64,000 nt of DNA, taken from assembly GCA_029378245.1 (NCBI GenBank), contig JARKIF010000013.1, positions 1,178,001 to 1,242,000 of the forward strand. Direction: 5' to 3'. The notes under the pieces are model-generated. The model ran no database searches. It saw only the letters and a program-made list of their open reading frames with translations, and had not been told where the DNA came from. The translations under genes were made by a program, and so were the position numbers. Numbering within the stretch: the stretch's first letter is position 1; each line of letters opens with the position of its first letter. Positions 1 through 9,554 of the stretch are shown here, piece after piece. Origin of the DNA: Roridomyces roridus. Taxonomy: Eukaryota > Basidiomycota > Agaricomycetes > Agaricales > Mycenaceae.

Positions 1-599
1 GCCACCAAAGAGCCGTGGCCAAACGATGGTGGAAGTTCTTCAACCCTGATAGGGTGTGAGGTGGTGACAATCACCTCGCCTGTGTCATTGGGGCACTCCT
101 TAGGATTGGAAGAGTTGCCCTATACATGCTTGAGACCTCTGATTGAAGACTACTGGCAGGCCATGGGCACCTTTGCCGTGTTAGTGGTCACGACTTCATT
201 GACCAAGGGCTTCACAACCAACCCACTTAAGACCAGATTTTTGGGCCCAGAATTGCTCAACAGACATTGAATTATCATCCAGTCCTATTTCCAGTTGCAC
301 CTGCAGCATTGAGTCCAGGTAAAAGATCAAACATGCGGATTTGACAGAAACCAGATTTTAAAATGGATCACTTTCATTTTTGTGATCGCTCTGCTACAGC
401 AAGGAGAGGGTCAAGCGACTCAATATTTTACGGGTATATACTAGACACTGTAAGCTTCCTTCGAAGACCTTAACATCGCCCAGAAGTGGCGTGGCTGTGA
501 AGCAATGCATCAAACAATTTCGAACCAGGCATGATCCATTACTTTTTCCGACTCAGTGTACGTGCCGTGGACAGGGAAGATGTAGCAACTAAAGTGAAT
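1..599. other. no recognisable gene
   Basis: Only short open frames are seen here, the longest a 69-codon plus-strand frame at 61-270 that resembles nothing I know. None of the TTAACGCGTTAA-like motifs found beyond the KDZ gene occur here. If this is still inside the KDZ element, its left end lies outside the window. Confidence 0.4.
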
Positions 600-2448
600 C
601 TAAGCTAGGCGGACCTTTTTGGGAAATCGCTCCTCCCGCTCGTCCTCTCCGTCTCCCTCCTCGCCCTCGCTCTCGATGTCCGTGAGGTCGCTCATCTCGC
701 CAGGCTCAGCCTCTGCCCACACCTCGACCCGCGTCCGACCCGTGTAGTTGCCAACCTTCACATCCTTCCACAGGGAGAATTTGGTGAGCGCGTTCTTCCA
801 ACGCGCTTGACGTGCCTCCTCACGCTGAGCGCGATCCTCCTCCGTAGCAGTAGCCTCCCACGCGAGGTCGGATTGGAATCCGTTCGCTACCCAGCGAAAG
901 AGTCCTCCAGCGGAATATTGGATGATGGAGAATCGCTCCTCCCCAGCCTGGATAGGAGTGTTGGAGTGGGTGACTACGGCGGAGGGGATAAGGACGCTAT
1001 ACCCGGCTGGGAAGCGAATGATGAGGTTATAATCCCAGAGCACGATGTGCCCGCCCTTGTCGGCGTCGAAGGTGCTGGGCGCGCCGATGAGGCAGAAGCC
1101 ATCCGCTTTGTTGCCGCGGTCGGCGTGTGGGGGTGAGACCGAGAAGGGGCCGAGGTTGAAGGTGGTGGCAGCAAAGGGACTGCGAGGGAAACCCCGCTTG
1201 AGACCAGGGTGGTGGTGGAGGAGATCGTGCTGGTTGCTGCGGTAGTCGGAAAAGATTGGGTGGCAGAGCGCTTGAAACGGAGCTGAGAAAAGAATTAGAG
1301 ACGAAAGGGAATGAGGAGAGCGAGAGACGTACGGATGGGATACGTGGCCATGCGACGAACATTGGGGTCGGCACGGACCTCGTCCATGACTTGTGCGTTG
1401 TGTGTCGAGGAGCACTTGACGTTACCAACGCTTCCCATTCCGCCACCGAATGCATAGCCGTCAGTGTGGGTGGGGAAGCCGGCGTCGTCGTCGAACGACC
1501 TGCGATGCTCGTAGGCAGCCTCAGGAAATGACATCCTCTCCCGCGCCTCACGCAGCTTGTCAGCCGCCTTCTCCCGCACAGTCCTCCACTTCTCGCCAGG
1601 AAGGGGAGGGGCGACGAGGACGCCGATGATGTATCCCGTCCGATCGACGAGTACATGCGTCTTTCTTTACAGAAAGTTAGTAAAAACGAAAGGTAAAGGA
1701 TGACGTAGCACGCACTCTCCCTCCCAATTGACAAAGCGCATGTGCGCCTTCAAGAACTCGGTATTGCGTGCGTGTGCAAGGAGGGGATGCTTGAGGGGTT
1801 GGCGCGCACCCGTCCAGCGTGGTTTGGATGCATGGAAGTCGGCGGCAGAGAAGTCGACTTTGACGGCAGAGGAGACGGCGGCTTTCTTGAGGATACGGTG
1901 GGGAGGTGCAGGCGTCGTTGGTCCCTCGTCAGCCTCACGCGCAGCAGCCTGGCGTCTGTTGCGATCGTGAGCGCGCTTCTTGATCTTGGCCTTCTCTTTG
2001 CGCGAGAGGGTTGGAGTGGAAGTCGAGGCGGGTGTGACGTGGTCGGAAGACGGAGACAATGAGGAGGCGGAGGACTCGAGAGGCTCAAGCTCCACGTCTT
2101 CCCCGTCGACAGGTAGCCCCAGATCTTCGTCCGCGATGCGTCGCGTGTTTTCAGCAAAGAGGGCGGCGCGTAAGTCAAAGGCCTCGCAGACAATGGGTTC
2201 TCCAAAATCTTGACGACGTGAGCACAACTGAGGAGTGAGGGGGAATGGAAAAGGAAATAGAAGATGCAAGAAAGACGCCCTCGCCCTGCTCTGATGTGGG
2301 AGTTGGGCAGAGGGCGCTGAAAGAATAAAAGGACCCTTCGAATCGGCCCTGCTCTGATGTGGGAGTTGGGCGCGACTCGAAGGGCAAACGAAAGGGAAGG
2401 AAGGTAAAGTAGAATGAGGCATGAAGACGCACCTGAGGTATCGTTCAT
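600..2448 (-). CDS. TET/JBP-like 2-oxoglutarate/Fe(II) dioxygenase
   Basis: Four exons (2433-2448, 1716-2208, 1333-1664, 600-1282) give an in-frame product of 507 residues. The N-terminal third is acidic, then Lys/Arg-rich, and low in complexity. The C-terminal half carries the double-stranded beta-helix signature: HxD as His-Ala-Asp near residues 333-335, the GGHIVLWD stretch, a distal His in SAVVTHSNT near 386, and an Arg in GEERFS near 397 for 2-oxoglutarate, followed by GGLFRWV. This pattern matches the large basidiomycete TET/JBP family, whose members oxidise 5-methylcytosine in DNA; nuclear action is inferred from the family. The tail is acidic and ends in a basic KKVRLA. The first intron is long (224 nt), and an upstream in-frame ATG at 2592 would add 48 residues, so the start is uncertain. 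It lies divergently from the KDZ transposase, as reported for fungal TET/JBP genes carried by KDZ elements. Confidence 0.85.
2283..2371. repeat. 26-bp direct repeat inside TET/JBP intron 1
   Basis: The 26-bp string beginning GCCCTGCTCTGATGTGGGAG occurs at 2283-2308 and again at 2346-2371 with no mismatch. The spacer is A-rich. The pair explains part of the unusual length of the first intron of the dioxygenase gene. No function is evident. Confidence 0.7.
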
Positions 2449-2643
2449 CGTCTTGTCCGACCTCGTTGCTGGCAAGCTTGTTTGTATCACATGCAGTGGC
2501 TGGACGCGTCTATTTGCTTGCGCATTTCCTTTCAATTCCAAGCTTTTCGGATGTATAAGCGAGGGTTTTTTCGATTCAACATACATACGCACATACTACG
2601 ATAGGGAGGGGTAGACTACGACAATGGCATACGCGCGAGGATA

Positions 2644-2999
2644 TCAGAGCTTGGCCTGAGTAAAAAAAGTGAGCAAAATAAATCCAAGAAATGCAGGTAG
2701 CGGACGCACCTTCTTCTTTTTAGAAGAAATGAGGTCCCAGGGCCTCTCAATACCCTCGCCATCGAACGTCGCGTGTGCTGTGAATGTACTCTGGCAGGGT
2801 TTGCTGTGTGCATGCGCATGGTAACGGGGTCGGGCGTCGGCGGCAAGGTGGGCGTCAAACCTGTGGGGACGCGTTCGTCAGCCATGGAAAAGGAGAGATG
2901 AGAGAGGGCACATACGTTGTATACCGCTCTCCCGTTGCTGAGTGGGTAGGTGGAAGGTTTGGATGACGAGAAGGAGACGACATCGCGGAGAAGAGACAA
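2644..2999 (-). pseudogene. KDZ-transposase catalytic-motif fragment
   Basis: The minus strand reads through small exons (first part up to about 2999, then 2710-2860 and 2644-2655) ending in a Lys-rich KKKKAKL and a stop. The middle exon contains His-rich sequence, then CQSTF, then DGEGIERPW. The same order (HxxxH, CQ, DGEGIERPW) surrounds the catalytic Glu of the intact KDZ transposase in this window (5400-5525), and nine residues are identical. I read it as a truncated, diverged KDZ piece just upstream of the dioxygenase. It could instead be a small expressed protein or an alternative 5' part of the dioxygenase transcript. Its splice sites look usable, but the product would be only about 80-100 residues. 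Confidence 0.4.
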
Positions 3000-3492
3000 G
3001 GAGCTAGGTCTTTGAAGGCCCAGAGCTAGGTCTTTGATGGCCCAGAGCTCACATTAGAAATCCACGACTGTGGGGTCTTCTGAAATGCCAAGCTTCCCTG
3101 TCCACTGTCAGCAGCTTGCCGCACTTGTATCTGTGCTTGCTTTCATTCTCAGCCATCATTGATTTGATTCTGGGTTCGAATCCTACGCTTCAACAAGTCA
3201 TGTTTTGATTCAAAGTTTTTCGTTCTTCACATCCGGCTCTCTTCCAGTCCCACCCTTCTCTTTTTTTCGTTTTTTATGCAACCAACGAGTCGACTCCGAT
3301 TAGGTGAGTTTCAATTCTGTGAGTGGATGGTTGGGTCTCGACTTCAAAGATTGTAGATTTGATTCGTCATCAACCTCCTCTTCCTCTTCCGTTTGACACG
3401 ACAACTCCGCCCGCCCTTGTAACGCGTCGATTCCCTGCTGACCACAATGAGGCGTCGCTACAACTACAAGCAGATCAAGACCCGCCCAACGA

Positions 3493-6400
3493 ATGTCCAC
3501 CCGGGCTAGCAAAAAAATCAGGCCCCAAGACCGTCCAGCCACGCTTGCCCCAGCCGCTACTGTGGCTCTTGGCAACTCTGACTCCGACGCAGACGACTAC
3601 ACCGTTGTCACGGCGCGTTCGGAGTCCCACCGTGTTTCGGCGGACGGACAGCGTGTCTATCCGATCCGTTTGCTGGCTGTGGCGGGCTCGTCTCCGGTCA
3701 AACGCCAACGCTCGCACAAGATTTCTCCCCCATCGAAACCCTCACAATCGTCTGCCCCGGTGAATGCGGACTGGCTGGGTGACGAACGCTACGACTTGCA
3801 GGAAGAGGATGTGTGGGGTGGGGCGCCGAACGAGGAAGGTGTGCCGGCTGTGAAGCCCAGCGTGCGTTTTCTTTTTTTCACGCACGGTGTTCTGCAAACT
3901 GACAACAACCCCAGGATGAGGCAATGGCGCGGTGGAAGATGCAGCTGCGAGACACCTATCTCGACGCGCTCCTGTGGAGAGATGGGCGTGGCAAAGCGGG
4001 GAACGTCTGTCCTGGGTGCACAGGGGGAGGGGAGGCCTTGTTTCGGTGCGACGACTGCTGTGGTGGCGAGATGTGGTGTGCAGACTGCTGCGTATCCACG
4101 CACGCCCGCCTGCCGCTACACAGAATCTGCGTATGTCCATTATGCTGATTCTCTGCCATTATACTGAATCTTTGCGATAGCGATGGAACGGTGTTTTTTT
4201 TGCAAGACATAGCCTCAAATCTCTGGGACTGCGCGTTCAGCTTGGACACCATCCCACCGGCCGCTGTGCTGCGCCCCACCCAGCGCATGGTGCCTTTCTC
4301 GTCCTCCACGACAACGGATTTCACGAGGTCGCCTTGGATTTCTGCGGCTGCGAGCACCAGGCGCAGGCAGATTCTCGTTGTCCACAAGTTCTTCTGCACC
4401 ACCTCCAACTCCTACGCTTCGGCTGGTATCCTTCCACGGACAAACGACCGCAGACTTGTGCTACTTTCACGGCCCTCGACCGTTTCACCCTTTGTTCCCA
4501 CCAGTCCAAGATGACCGCGTACGACTTGTATTGCATTCTCGAACGCTTGACGGACAACACGGGGGTCGAGCCTCCCGACCGCTACGAACCATTCCTCCGT
4601 ATGGCGCGCCAATGGCGTCATCTGCACCTCCTCAAACGTGCAGGGCGGGGACATGCAGCGTCGGGCTGCGATGGGACCGCGGCGGGCGAGTTAGCGCTCC
4701 TCTGTCCCGTTTGTCCTCACCCGAAGATCAATCTGCCTGAGGGATTCGAGAACGCAGCTCCCGAAAACCAGTAAGTGCATGCTTTTTGGATCAAGACGTT
4801 GGCGAGGCTGATATACATAAGGTGCCTGTATGTAATGACCCTGGGTTTGGACGCCTGTTTCCGGCTGAAGCGCCGGCTCATCTCCAGCGAGCAGCGCGAT
4901 CCCGGCCTCAGTACAGGCTTGAGCTATGTGGTGGAGCCAGAGCCATACCGGGAGTACCTGAAGACAGTTACCGACCAGAAAGAGGTGCGGGCCTCTTTGC
5001 ACAAAAGAAAATAAATACTTACATTTTCGTCCAGATGACCACATGCAGTGGCCTCGCCGCCCTCGACTACGCCAACACCAAGTTTTCACGGGGTTATGCC
5101 ACCACCGGCGTCGTCATGGGCGTCTGCGCTCGCCACGAGTTTGTCCAGCCCAATGGGGTAGGTGATCTTCAGAGAGGCAAAAGGTCCGTTTTTTTTTCCC
5201 TCCTCGCATCGGATTGTATTTAATATTTCGACAGATTCGCTAATACGGATTGGGTCTTTGCCTCCATCCTTCGCCACCTGGACCCTCGCATCCGGAAGAT
5301 CGTATTGTACGACATCGTTTGCCAATGGGCGGTGCACGTCATCGAGCGGCTCAAGGAACTCCCTCCCTTGATGCGGCTTTCGATGCTGCTTCAGCTCTTT
5401 CGTTTCGTCATCCCCAAGATGCACATCCGGGGCCACACCGTGAATTGCCAGGTCCGATACTCCCTTAACTACGTGCCTGGGAGCGGCCAAACGGACGGAG
5501 AGGGCATTGAACGGCCTTGGGCAAATATTGGTGGTATCGCTACTAGCACCAGGGTCAGCGGGCCGGGCGCGAGGCACGACGCCCTCGACTGCCACTGGAG
5601 CTTCTGGAACTGGCTAAAAACCGTAGGCCTTCGTGAGTGCGCTGTGATTGCCTACCGAGGACGTTACTGACGGGTCTTCGTGTAGCCAAGCTCCTTCGTC
5701 GGCGTTTGGACATGGCGAAAGAGGAGGAGGTTGTCCAGAAGGCGGCGTTCGAGGTGTTTACCTTGGAACAGCTGAAACGTGTTCCCGTTTGGCAGAAGAT
5801 GGTGGAGGAATACGAGGCGGATGGAACGAAGCCAAACCCCTACGAGTCCACGGAAAAGGGGTTGACGGAGGCGCAGGTGAGGAGGAAGCTGGAAGATGAG
5901 GAGGAGGAGGAGATGAAGGCGGGGAAAACGCGGGTTAACGACGTCAGCCCGTGCGGATTCGTATCCCTCGGCCTGGAGCTGGAAGATAGCCAGTAAGTTT
6001 TTGCGTACACGCCTTTTATATTTCTGCTCACAGTCGGTCCCCAGGCGCAAGATTCGCCTCCAAGTGGAGCTGAAGAAAGGCGGATCATCTGAGTCATCGA
6101 AGGAGAGCTTGAAGCAACTGCGACGCAATTTTACCACTCGGCTGACGCGTTTCCGCACGCTGCAGGCCACCTACCAACCCTCCGCCATCCAAACCCTCAC
6201 CAGGCGAGAGGTCCCTCCAGAGGAGCTGCCCGAGCAAGTCCCCCTGATGCTGCCGTCGGCTTTGCCACCACACCTCCAAATCTCGCCAGGCTGCATGCCG
6301 GGTCTTGCGGATATCGAGAACACCCTTCGCGAGGCCCAATGCCGCGCCGCCCTCGTTCGCCTTCGGAATCAGTTGCACATCAAGGCGCGGCTTCTGCTTC

Positions 6401-7300
6401 ACAAGCAGAATCACTCCCGCCATCCAGCCCAGAATACGCGCTCGCGGGCTGTGGTGGCTCGGAACGAAAGCAAGATCCGTGCCCATTCGGAAAAATTCCA
6501 GATAGCGTGGCAGGCGAGACTGTCGTTGATGGGAGGGAACGAGGCGGCTGTGGGATGGCCTCGGCTGCAAAAGGCCGACATCCGGTGCATGGAGGATCCC
6601 CAGGAGCTTGCCAAGAAGGGCGAGAAGCGGAAACGCGCGGCCAAGCGGGAGCGCAAATCGCGGAGGGAGGGCGGGCTACCCGAGGAGGATGTGGTGATGG
6701 GTTCGGATGACGAGGAGAACCCGGTGCAGGCAGGGGAGAAGTTCAGAGAGGTCTCGTGGATCTGGACCATGACGGGGACATCTGGGACTGATGTCGAGCT
6801 AGATGAGGGTGAGCGCTTCCGTTGCCTTTTTAGGAAGTGGATTTGATTGAACATTTCACAAAGCTCTACGGATTGAATGGGCCAAGGCTTGGGCACGGTG
6901 TCGGCGTTGGACGGAAGAGCGGCGCATGCTGGAGGAGGAGTGGCGACGCCTCAGCGCCTCCTACAACTATCGCGAAAGCGTATGGCAGGAGCGGGCCAAG
7001 GCTGTGCCGGTAGGATTGATAGATGGTGAAATTGCGGAGGGAAAGCTGGCGTACGCCCTCAAGCAGGCCCAGCTTTACCGGGAGCTACGGGTACGAGCGG
7101 AGGCAGTCTGTACTGCAGCCCCTCTTCGTCGGGGTCAGGCGCGAAAACGCTACGCAGCGCTGCCGTTACCGTACGGGTTTTCTACCGCTGGGGAAGACGA
7201 GGAGGAGGGTGGTGGGCTACTGTCGGACGGGGATGGTAGCGATGGTCAGGGTGACGTCAGCGACGAAGAGCTGCTGATGGGCGGGGAAGTGGATGACTAG
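3493..7300 (+). CDS. KDZ (Kyakuja-Dileera-Zisupton) transposase
   Basis: Nine exons (3493-3861, 3915-4130, 4181-4770, 4822-4984, 5035-5183, 5235-5632, 5686-5992, 6045-6808, 6864-7300) join to 3393 nt with no stop, giving 1130 residues. Order of parts: a low-complexity N-terminus; a CxC2-type cysteine cluster (CPGC, CDDC, CADCC, then HARLPLHR) at about residues 150-190; a conserved WNG/FCGCE block; then the transposase core with LDANFRL-like LGLDACFRL, GLAALDYAN, CARHEFVQPNG, YDIVCQW, KMHIRGH and TDGEGIERPWANIGG. The core holds the expected acidic residues. The C-terminal third is charged and coiled-coil-like. All motifs of the family are present, so the enzyme may be active. ATG 3493 is chosen because the ATG at 3448 soon meets a stop. 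It is divergent from the TET/JBP gene, with about 1 kb between them. Confidence 0.9.
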
Positions 7301-7430: not shown

Positions 7431-8498
7431 CAGCAGTTCCTGTAAATAATGTCAATCACCATTTTTTTTTTCGCGTGTTACCAAAAAAGGCAATTTAGCC
7501 TTCTTGCTTGTCGTCTCGAGTCTTCTCTGTCTCCCACCACTCAAATCGGCGCACAGGAGCCTCTGTGAGGCCTTCGGGTGTCTTAGAAGCATGTCGCCGC
7601 CGTTCTACCGCTGAGACGGGTGCCACGGGCCTCAATTACACCGTAATCGTACCTCGCTTTCGCACCGGTATCCTGGCCCCACACCCACCATCGGCCTCAT
7701 CCAAGACTATGTGAAGACCCAGAGAAGCCGTAGGACAACGGGAGATGGAAATTATCCAGGGATCGTGTCGAATCGAGCATTGACCGTCAGGTGTGTATCC
7801 TACGCGCCTGGTCCTCGGCTGCAGCTCAATGTCCTATCGGCCATTCCCATTCTGCACAAGCCCGTGCCGCTCTCAACCACGGACTACTCCATACTATGAT
7901 ACTATGCATACTCAAGGCTCGGCGGGCTTCGACGAATCAGACGACATCGGACAGCAGGCTGGCGCGCAGTCTTGCGTGCGCACGGACCTGGGATTCTCAG
8001 CATCCCTGACGCCCTGCCTCCTGCCGCCGGGCGCGTTACCATCCTGCAACCCGCGGGCCACGCTGCGAGAGGCGAGCGCAAGGCGGGGTTTGCTTGGCCT
8101 GCACCTCACCTTCCGACTCCTTCGTCCCTCACTGCCTCACTTCGACCCATGTGACGATGTCTTTTGTGCAGTGGCCGGTGGCGTCGTCCTTTCAGGGTTC
8201 CTGCTCAGCGCTTGTGAGAGCCCAACGCTGCAGGGATTGCGGGAGTGGACTTGCAGGGGAGTAGTCGGGGACGCGAGGGCGGCCGATCTTTGCACGATAA
8301 TTCCACTGTAGATGACTCTTTCATACACATTGAATCTACTCTATATAACTCATATTCACTTGAAATGACCTCCTTTTGAGTACCGCGAGCCTTGCGAGGG
8401 CAGGAGACACGAGACAAAGGGGAGTTACACAAAATTTCCATTTTGGGAAGACGCGAAAAAAAAAAAATGGTGATTGACATTATTTACAGGAACTGCTG
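7431..8498. mobile_element. TA-flanked TIR element, non-autonomous, 1068 bp
   Basis: Terminal inverted repeats of about 44 bp start CAGCAGTTCCTGTAAATAAT at 7431 and match the complement of 8452-8498. They are near-perfect, differing mainly in T-run length. A TA dinucleotide flanks each end (7429-7430 and 8499-8500), as expected for Tc1/mariner-type insertion. The interior has no recognisable transposase. It sits in the palindrome cluster downstream of the KDZ gene, so it inserted after that element arrived. Confidence 0.8.
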
Positions 8499-8562: not shown

Positions 8563-8850
8563 CGCATTAGATCCGGGCTACGATTCGGGTTTGTCGCGTT
8601 GAGCCCAGGGTAGCCTAATGTGTTAGATCAATCATCTAATGCGTTAAAATTTGGGGAGGTTATTCTGGCCAGATATGTGATTCCCACGGGTTAACATCAG
8701 TGCCGAGGGGGCCGAGCGATAGCATATATGCCGGCGGAGCCGCGGGGTACCCGGTCTTACCCGTGCAGGCCCGGGATTTGGCCTTTGAGCCTAGCCCTGG
8801 TTTAATGCATTAACGACATGGGTTATAACCCACTTTAATGCATTATTCTA
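8563..8850. repeat. cluster of decayed TTAACGCGTTAA-like palindromes (right part)
   Basis: Variants TAATGTGTTA, TAATGCGTTAAAA, TTTAATGCATTAA and CTTTAATGCATTA occur between 8563 and 8848. Each differs from TTAACGCGTTAA by CpG to TpG/CpA changes. The cluster ends abruptly at the gypsy fragment, which probably marks an element boundary near 8850. Confidence 0.5.
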
Positions 8851-9554
8851 GGTGGATAAGGTGGGACGAACTCCTTCCGACCGCGGAGTTTGCCTACAAC
8901 AGCCATCTCCACTCGTCCACGCAGCAAGTTCCGTTTATGACCGACTCCGGCCGCCTCCCTCGACTCGGGTTTGAGCCTACCGACCTCTGGTCCGACGTCG
9001 AGTCCGCTCAGGCATTCCGGGACCGGATCGCGCACGGAGTCTCCGAAGCTCAAGCCGCGCTCGTTAAAGCCAAGGCGGAGCAGAAGCAGTACTACGACCG
9101 CCGCCGCCTTGCCGCTCCGGACATCAAAGTCGGAGACCGCGTCTGGCTCGATGCTTCGGACATCCGGACAACCCGCCCGTCTCCGAAACTGTCCCACAAG
9201 CGCCTCGGTCCGTTCAAGGTCATAAAGGTCGTCGGAAAGGGAGCCTTCAAGCTCGAGCTCCCCGCCAGTCTGTCCCGCCTACACCCTGTCTTTCCGGTCG
9301 TCAAACTCGAGCTCGCGGTCGGAGACCCGTTCCCAGGTCGACCACACCACGAGGAGCCCGGTCCGATCCTTCCGGACGCCGACTACGGACCGAACGAGTA
9401 TGAGGTCGAGGAGATTGTGGACGCTAAGTTCCGGTATAATCATCTCAATTTCCGCGTTAAATGGAAAGGTTATAGCCACGACCACGACGAATGGGTCCGC
9501 CACGACCGGATATTCTCCGAGGGTCTAGTGGCGGATTTCTACCGCCGAGAATAA
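8850..9554 (+). pseudogene. Ty3/gypsy Pol 3' fragment (integrase C-terminus and chromodomain)
   Basis: An open frame of about 235 residues matches only the end of a gypsy polyprotein. It has the integrase tail (WDELLPTAEFAYN, then KVGDRVWLDASDI and KLSHKRLGPFKV) and a chromodomain (YEVEEIVDAKF to WKGYSHDHDEWV). Reverse transcriptase, RNase H and the integrase catalytic core are missing because the frame starts abruptly at about 8850, next to the palindrome cluster. It is therefore a 5'-truncated remnant. Chromodomain integrases of this kind direct insertion to heterochromatin in related elements. Confidence 0.85.

Follow-up and report, generated by a model that had tools for sequence, protein, structure and literature searches.

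A resident, probably ageing copy of a large TET-carrying Kyakuja-type transposon in Roridomyces roridus

The genes and ends of the element

The stretch of DNA analysed here (the window) covers 64,000 nucleotides of one contig in the 90.8-Mb assembly of Roridomyces roridus (G000:C35:1178001-1242000) and carries, near its left edge, a TET/JBP-like dioxygenase gene and a KDZ transposase gene, which lie head-to-head on a transposon that extends beyond the window. The dioxygenase gene (600..2448, minus strand; exons 2448-2433, 2208-1716, 1664-1333 and 1282-600) encodes 507 amino acids (aa) without internal stops, with the motif order HAD ... THSN ... EERFS. The transposase gene (3493..7300, plus strand; exons 3493-3861, 3915-4130, 4181-4770, 4822-4984, 5035-5183, 5235-5632, 5686-5992, 6045-6808 and 6864-7300) encodes 1130 aa, in which Pfam recognises the CxC2 (PF18803, E 4.8e-38) and KDZ (PF18758, E 7.7e-34) domains that mark a KDZ DNA transposon. 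As the first-pass annotation had it, both genes splice into full open frames; the introns are GT..AG, in exon models built from the sequence and its homologues, not from RNA. It had also described a two-gene unit; the head-to-head arrangement stands, but a third gene lies between the two on the dioxygenase strand and was overlooked (2644..2983, minus strand; exons 2983-2916, 2860-2710 and 2655-2644), encoding a small KDZ-derived protein of 76 aa. Two identical 26-bp repeats occupy part of the first dioxygenase intron (2283-2371).

Comparison of this copy with those on contigs C13, which is 99% identical, and C477 places the transposon at window -13902 to 8863, with both genes at its right end and its left end upstream of the window, at C35:1164098. 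The C35 copy measures 22,766 bp, or 14,819 bp without three insertions that are absent from C13. It begins with CAGCTGGTCC.. and ends with ..GGATAAGGTG, giving CA..TG termini, and carries imperfect terminal inverted repeats (TIRs) of about 70 bp, for which alignments of the 80-bp ends score 32-45 against a shuffled maximum of 7. The right repeat (8784..8863, minus strand) ends in ..GGTG-3' and is followed by the 7-bp target site duplication GGACGAA (8864..8870), the same 7 bp that precede the left end. Joining the two flanks yields a 133-codon open gypsy integrase frame; the half at window 8871-9554 is integrase-like, and the upstream one is found beyond the window, to the left of the element. 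The C477 copy, of 14,703 bp, is flanked by TCTGTTT and sits inside an accessory open reading frame (ORF) of a related element. The defined ends, the 7-bp duplication (at C35 and C477, out of three copies compared) and the break in the gypsy frame thus support the conclusion that dioxygenase and transposase move together as one TET+ Kyakuja-type element; the lack of a clean 7-bp duplication at the C13 copy speaks against it. The Kyakuja-type label refers to the 7-bp duplication and the CA..TG ends.

These results bear directly on the mobile unit that had been proposed from the window, which is indeed co-mobilised but extends well beyond 600-7300, its left end being located before the window begins. 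Aligning other copies had been suggested as the way to its ends and target duplication, and the C13 and C477 copies supplied the ends, with the duplication present at C35 and C477; alignments in which the two genes travel separately had been named as evidence to the contrary, and the alignments support co-mobilisation instead.

Genome-wide, 78 TET loci remain after merging, 48 of them no more than 10 kb from one of 103 KDZ loci, whose 10-kb surroundings cover 2.1% of the genome; the KDZ numbers are minima, and loci that are nearly identical, be they duplicates or second haplotypes, enter separately. The linked pairs are mostly head-to-head (38), with nine in tandem and one tail-to-tail. The other 30 TET loci, which lack a KDZ at that distance, count against the reading as one element.

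The arrangement has precedents. The available text of Kojima (2025; PMC12730594) describes TET+ Kyakuja elements in Agaricomycotina that, like this one, combine KDZ and TET in one element with 7-bp duplications and CA..TG termini, and proposes an escape from silencing. It reports no TIRs in two Laccaria families, a descriptive rather than a defining trait, whereas the window element has them; it further differs from those elements in its extra small gene and in a TET without the AG-type mark discussed below. A term search of the main text of that paper found neither 'Mycena' nor 'Roridomyces'. TIRs also occur on the KDZ1-3 elements of Cryptococcus neoformans (about 9-11 kb; PMC12810828), whose KDZ transposases were shown to be mobile; unlike the window element, these are CxC1 rather than CxC2, make 4-8 bp duplications and have no TET gene mentioned in the portion of that paper available. 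Since TIR motifs were already characterised for KDZ and Plavaka elements of Marasmius oreades (PMC8290104, where the accessible text mentions no TET link), TIRs on KDZ elements are not new. In a literature search that mostly left subscription papers outside its scope, the small gene, TET exchange between Kyakuja lineages and these fungi in this context went unmentioned, and a search requiring all terms returned nothing on transposable elements of Roridomyces roridus or on Mycena TET dioxygenases.

The remainder of the element comprises the three insertions and further frames. Insertion 1 (5,305 bp; C35:1167575-1172879, left of the window) has CA..TG ends and the 7-bp duplication GATTAAG; KDZ is not detectable in it, and it is perhaps a non-autonomous Kyakuja relative. 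Insertion 2, of 1563 bp, reaches into the window with its right part (1..558), has a TIR beginning CACTGAGTCGG.. and a TA duplication, and is a high-copy element, window 1-560 having 27 other matches among the matches listed. Insertion 3 (7431..8498; 1068 bp) carries 69-bp TIRs and a TA duplication. Eight minus-strand ORFs to the left of the dioxygenase entered the comparison, of which C477 matches five and the locus on contig C90 five; a Pfam scan of seven of the eight gave no match up to E 0.1. An ORF at element positions 6389-6991 (L022-L023) is cysteine-rich with two similar repeats and is matched in C90 and C477, again with no Pfam match.

The TET identity of the dioxygenase

The identification of the dioxygenase as TET is supported by its modelled fold, with sequence searches giving no support. 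An AlphaFold model of P0002, the 98% identical partial protein (333 aa) of the C13 copy, has CcTET, NgTET and TET2 as its top matches, and the double-stranded beta-helix with HxD..H is nearest to TET. CcTET of Coprinopsis cinerea (8jkk, 7w5p, 7vpn) is the closest solved fold and has the HxD..H metal triad in common with it, at 14-16% identity. Against this stand the low identity (about 14%) without any sequence or profile match to CcTET, the failure of phmmer and of profile searches to match the dioxygenase to any TET among the solved structures, and the Pfam Tet_JBP scores: at the curated cut-off the window protein has no match and the relative P0030 reaches 26 bits where 34.9 are needed, while at E<=1 only 12 of 39 relatives match, at best with 3.7e-4. 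A genome-wide Tet_JBP scan also gave no match, and neither did its control, making it uninformative on absence. The TET assignment of the first-pass annotation therefore holds by fold and not by sequence search.

Within the TET fold, the protein lacks the AG- and PE-type marks that were tested, and this is new here. In place of the Gly/Ser of the AG type at CcTET position 331 (three residues after the metal Asp) it has Asn, invariant across the 55-row alignment A4, the equivalent position having been placed by spacing and not by residue-level structure alignment. At the spacing of CcTET 337, which is Asp in the AG type, at least 90% of the rows have Cys, but the spacing may shift there and the two positions may not correspond. 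The HxE of the PE type is replaced by HAD, with Asp in at least 90% of the rows.

A conserved small gene and an exchanged dioxygenase

The middle exon of the small gene resembles the transposase around DGEGIERPW, and searches with the gene also match KDZ exons, at 33-46% identity and weak E values of 0.001 to 0.7. The gene itself was found at 12 loci with E 3e-13 or better, in 11 of which exons, start and stop are the same and lengths vary in threes (76-83 aa); the C334 copy is frameshifted by a 17-base gap. The 12 loci represent six distinct sequences, with dN/dS (the ratio of nonsynonymous to synonymous divergence, dS being the latter) of 0.12-0.45 in the 15 pairwise comparisons. The 11 KDZ loci at least 88% identical to the window KDZ exon lie in the same 11 elements as the small gene, which sits between TET and KDZ in every one of them and is intact in ten. 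For the twelfth copy (G000:C113:677794-677994), neither TET nor KDZ is among the matches listed in its vicinity. The same search did not find the gene beside other KDZ loci, where its divergence may be beyond reach. A conserved small third gene in this KDZ subgroup is new here. A fusion to the dioxygenase was considered, a right-phase acceptor being present, and dropped, as annotated relatives open with a separate Met, a few residues ahead of where the shared part begins. Truncated transposases elsewhere act as regulators, and by that analogy our best guess is that the small gene may encode a truncated transposase with a regulatory role.

The two larger genes appear to differ in their histories. 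Between C35 and C477, dS is 0.47 for KDZ and 1.7, near saturation, for the dioxygenase; the identity of the two copies jumps upward near position 3400, between the genes, and the TET introns are 49-57% identical, below most of the KDZ introns (51-88%). C90 presents the reversed pattern, with a dioxygenase dS of only 0.68 to C35, a dioxygenase main exon 86% identical in aa to the C13 protein, and a transposase 47% identical in aa in the compared exon. In the TET tree C90 joins C35 and C13 (100/99), and in the KDZ tree it joins C157 and C105 (97/100), which share its tandem gene order; the trees have 18 TET and 13 KDZ rows, from 13 two-gene loci that we selected from the 48 pairs, plus TET outgroups. 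Because the two trees disagree, they show an apparent passage of the dioxygenase between two KDZ lineages, new here. Three points weigh against this exchange: the KDZ bootstrap had yet to converge completely; two of the rows, C235b and C20, are long or short of data; and the C90 genes are taken as one element from the C157/C105 order and similar spacing.

Age of the copy and the role of its dioxygenase

Both genes have been kept by selection in the long term, with dN/dS to C477 of 0.22 for TET and 0.13 (0.127) for KDZ, and of 0.15 for TET to C90. Between the 99% identical C35 and C13 copies the ratios, from few changes, are 0.62 for TET and 0.49 for KDZ, as would be expected of decaying copies; the C13 transposase has two stops and one deletion. 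The window transposase departs from its relatives at 7 of 252 columns conserved in at least 95% of 60 sequences, a small excess over the C477 protein (4 of 228), and at least two of its changes are window-specific, at residues 422 and 495. All catalytic motifs had been reported for the two genes, and the motifs are present, but residue 495 is altered where all 58 relatives have Glu. Residue 350 of the window dioxygenase is Ser, in place of the Gly found in 60 of 62 relatives; the idea that its changes set this protein apart was rejected, as among columns conserved at >=90% it differs at 2 of 59 and other R. roridus dioxygenases differ at 0 to 2 of 57-59, 8 of the 72 rows P0003-P0074 having been excluded by eye as partial or mis-spliced.

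Decay is also visible at CpG sites, where changes were polarised with C477 as outgroup and contexts matched. In the window lineage, C-to-T type changes affect 14 of 681 CpG sites and 4 of 1744 other C/G sites (9-fold, p 1.6e-5), in the C13 lineage 5 of 671 and 3 of 1744 (4-fold, p 0.04), and of the 102 transitions along the entire element, 68 are in YG/CR contexts (5-fold). The TET-less insertion 3, with 8 of 10 copies compared, gives 9 of 1256 against 7 of 3447 (3.5-fold, p 0.02). The observed/expected CpG ratio, a count biased by its own definition and redone as above, does not support a TET that keeps its element free of CpG loss, and this idea was rejected: the ratio is about 1.0 in the element and also 1.01 and 0.97 in two insertions. 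In the 1.56-kb insertion 2 it is 0.45, in surroundings of about 1.0. The genome contains C5 DNA methylase matches in seven rows. On the simplest reading, the copies were once CpG-methylated and are now decaying, their own TET apparently giving no visible protection.

The window copy was thought to be a good candidate for a currently active one, a claim weakly supported at best. With its three insertions, the high dN/dS between 99% identical copies, the altered invariant residue and the CpG decay, it looks old rather than active and makes a weak active candidate. We consider it probable that a large DNA transposon of the TET+ Kyakuja type is represented here by a resident copy that is ageing. 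The transposase would move such an element by cut and paste via its ends, and the dioxygenase, provided in trans by any copies with expression, would oxidise 5-methylcytosine (5mC) on element DNA and so ease the transcription or transposition of relatives; the small protein may act as a modulator of the transposase, copies would become methylated once inserted and then decay at CpG, and the dioxygenase would be a module exchanged between KDZ lineages. Escape from CpG silencing by an element's own TET, which the first-pass annotation also raised, is an idea already in print and is here unproven, and CpG decay in the TET-carrying element no weaker than in a TET-less one of the same genome counts against it.

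The dioxygenase might instead restrain transposons, with oxidised cytosine recruiting repressors or holding TET/KDZ expression low. In two mushrooms, Licyte et al. (2022; PMC8889193), in the part of the paper available, link 5-hydroxymethylcytosine and 5-formylcytosine on transposable elements with silencing and state that weak expression was seen for just a few TET genes, and the window copy does not look protected against decay at CpG. We nevertheless regard restraint as unlikely: a dioxygenase conserved on a transposon at low dN/dS suggests a benefit to the element, although self-restraint could be selected too. Slightly less likely still is an enzyme that acts mainly on another base or on RNA (N6-methyladenine, RNA 5mC, a CMD1-like addition) and not on DNA 5mC: its distance from CcTET and the Asn and Cys at the Gly331 and Asp337 spacing would suit this, but human TET2 has Asn (N1387) at the Gly331 position, which fits 5mC use. 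That chance or segmental duplication, and not a common element, brought the two genes together would agree with the abrupt shift in identity to C477 between them, yet is contradicted by the shared ends, the duplications, the interrupted gypsy frame, the different flanks and the 48 of 78 linked TET loci, and is hardly credible.

Beyond the resident, ageing copy, a broader reading is tentative and, to our minds, somewhat short of an even chance: one TET+ Kyakuja lineage would be a three-gene machine, comprising the transposase, an exchangeable demethylase of a TET subtype outside AG, PE and PU, and a KDZ-derived protein of 76-83 aa that regulates or assists the transposase, demethylase modules being swapped between transposon lineages within the genome in an arms race with host methylation. 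The work gives precise ends for a transposon that carries a demethylase, from a relative of Mycena, together with a conserved third gene, and reveals a dioxygenase family that the Pfam TET model barely detects. Its CpG scars offer a handle on self-protection by a transposon-borne TET, of which the resident copies have so far given no sign.
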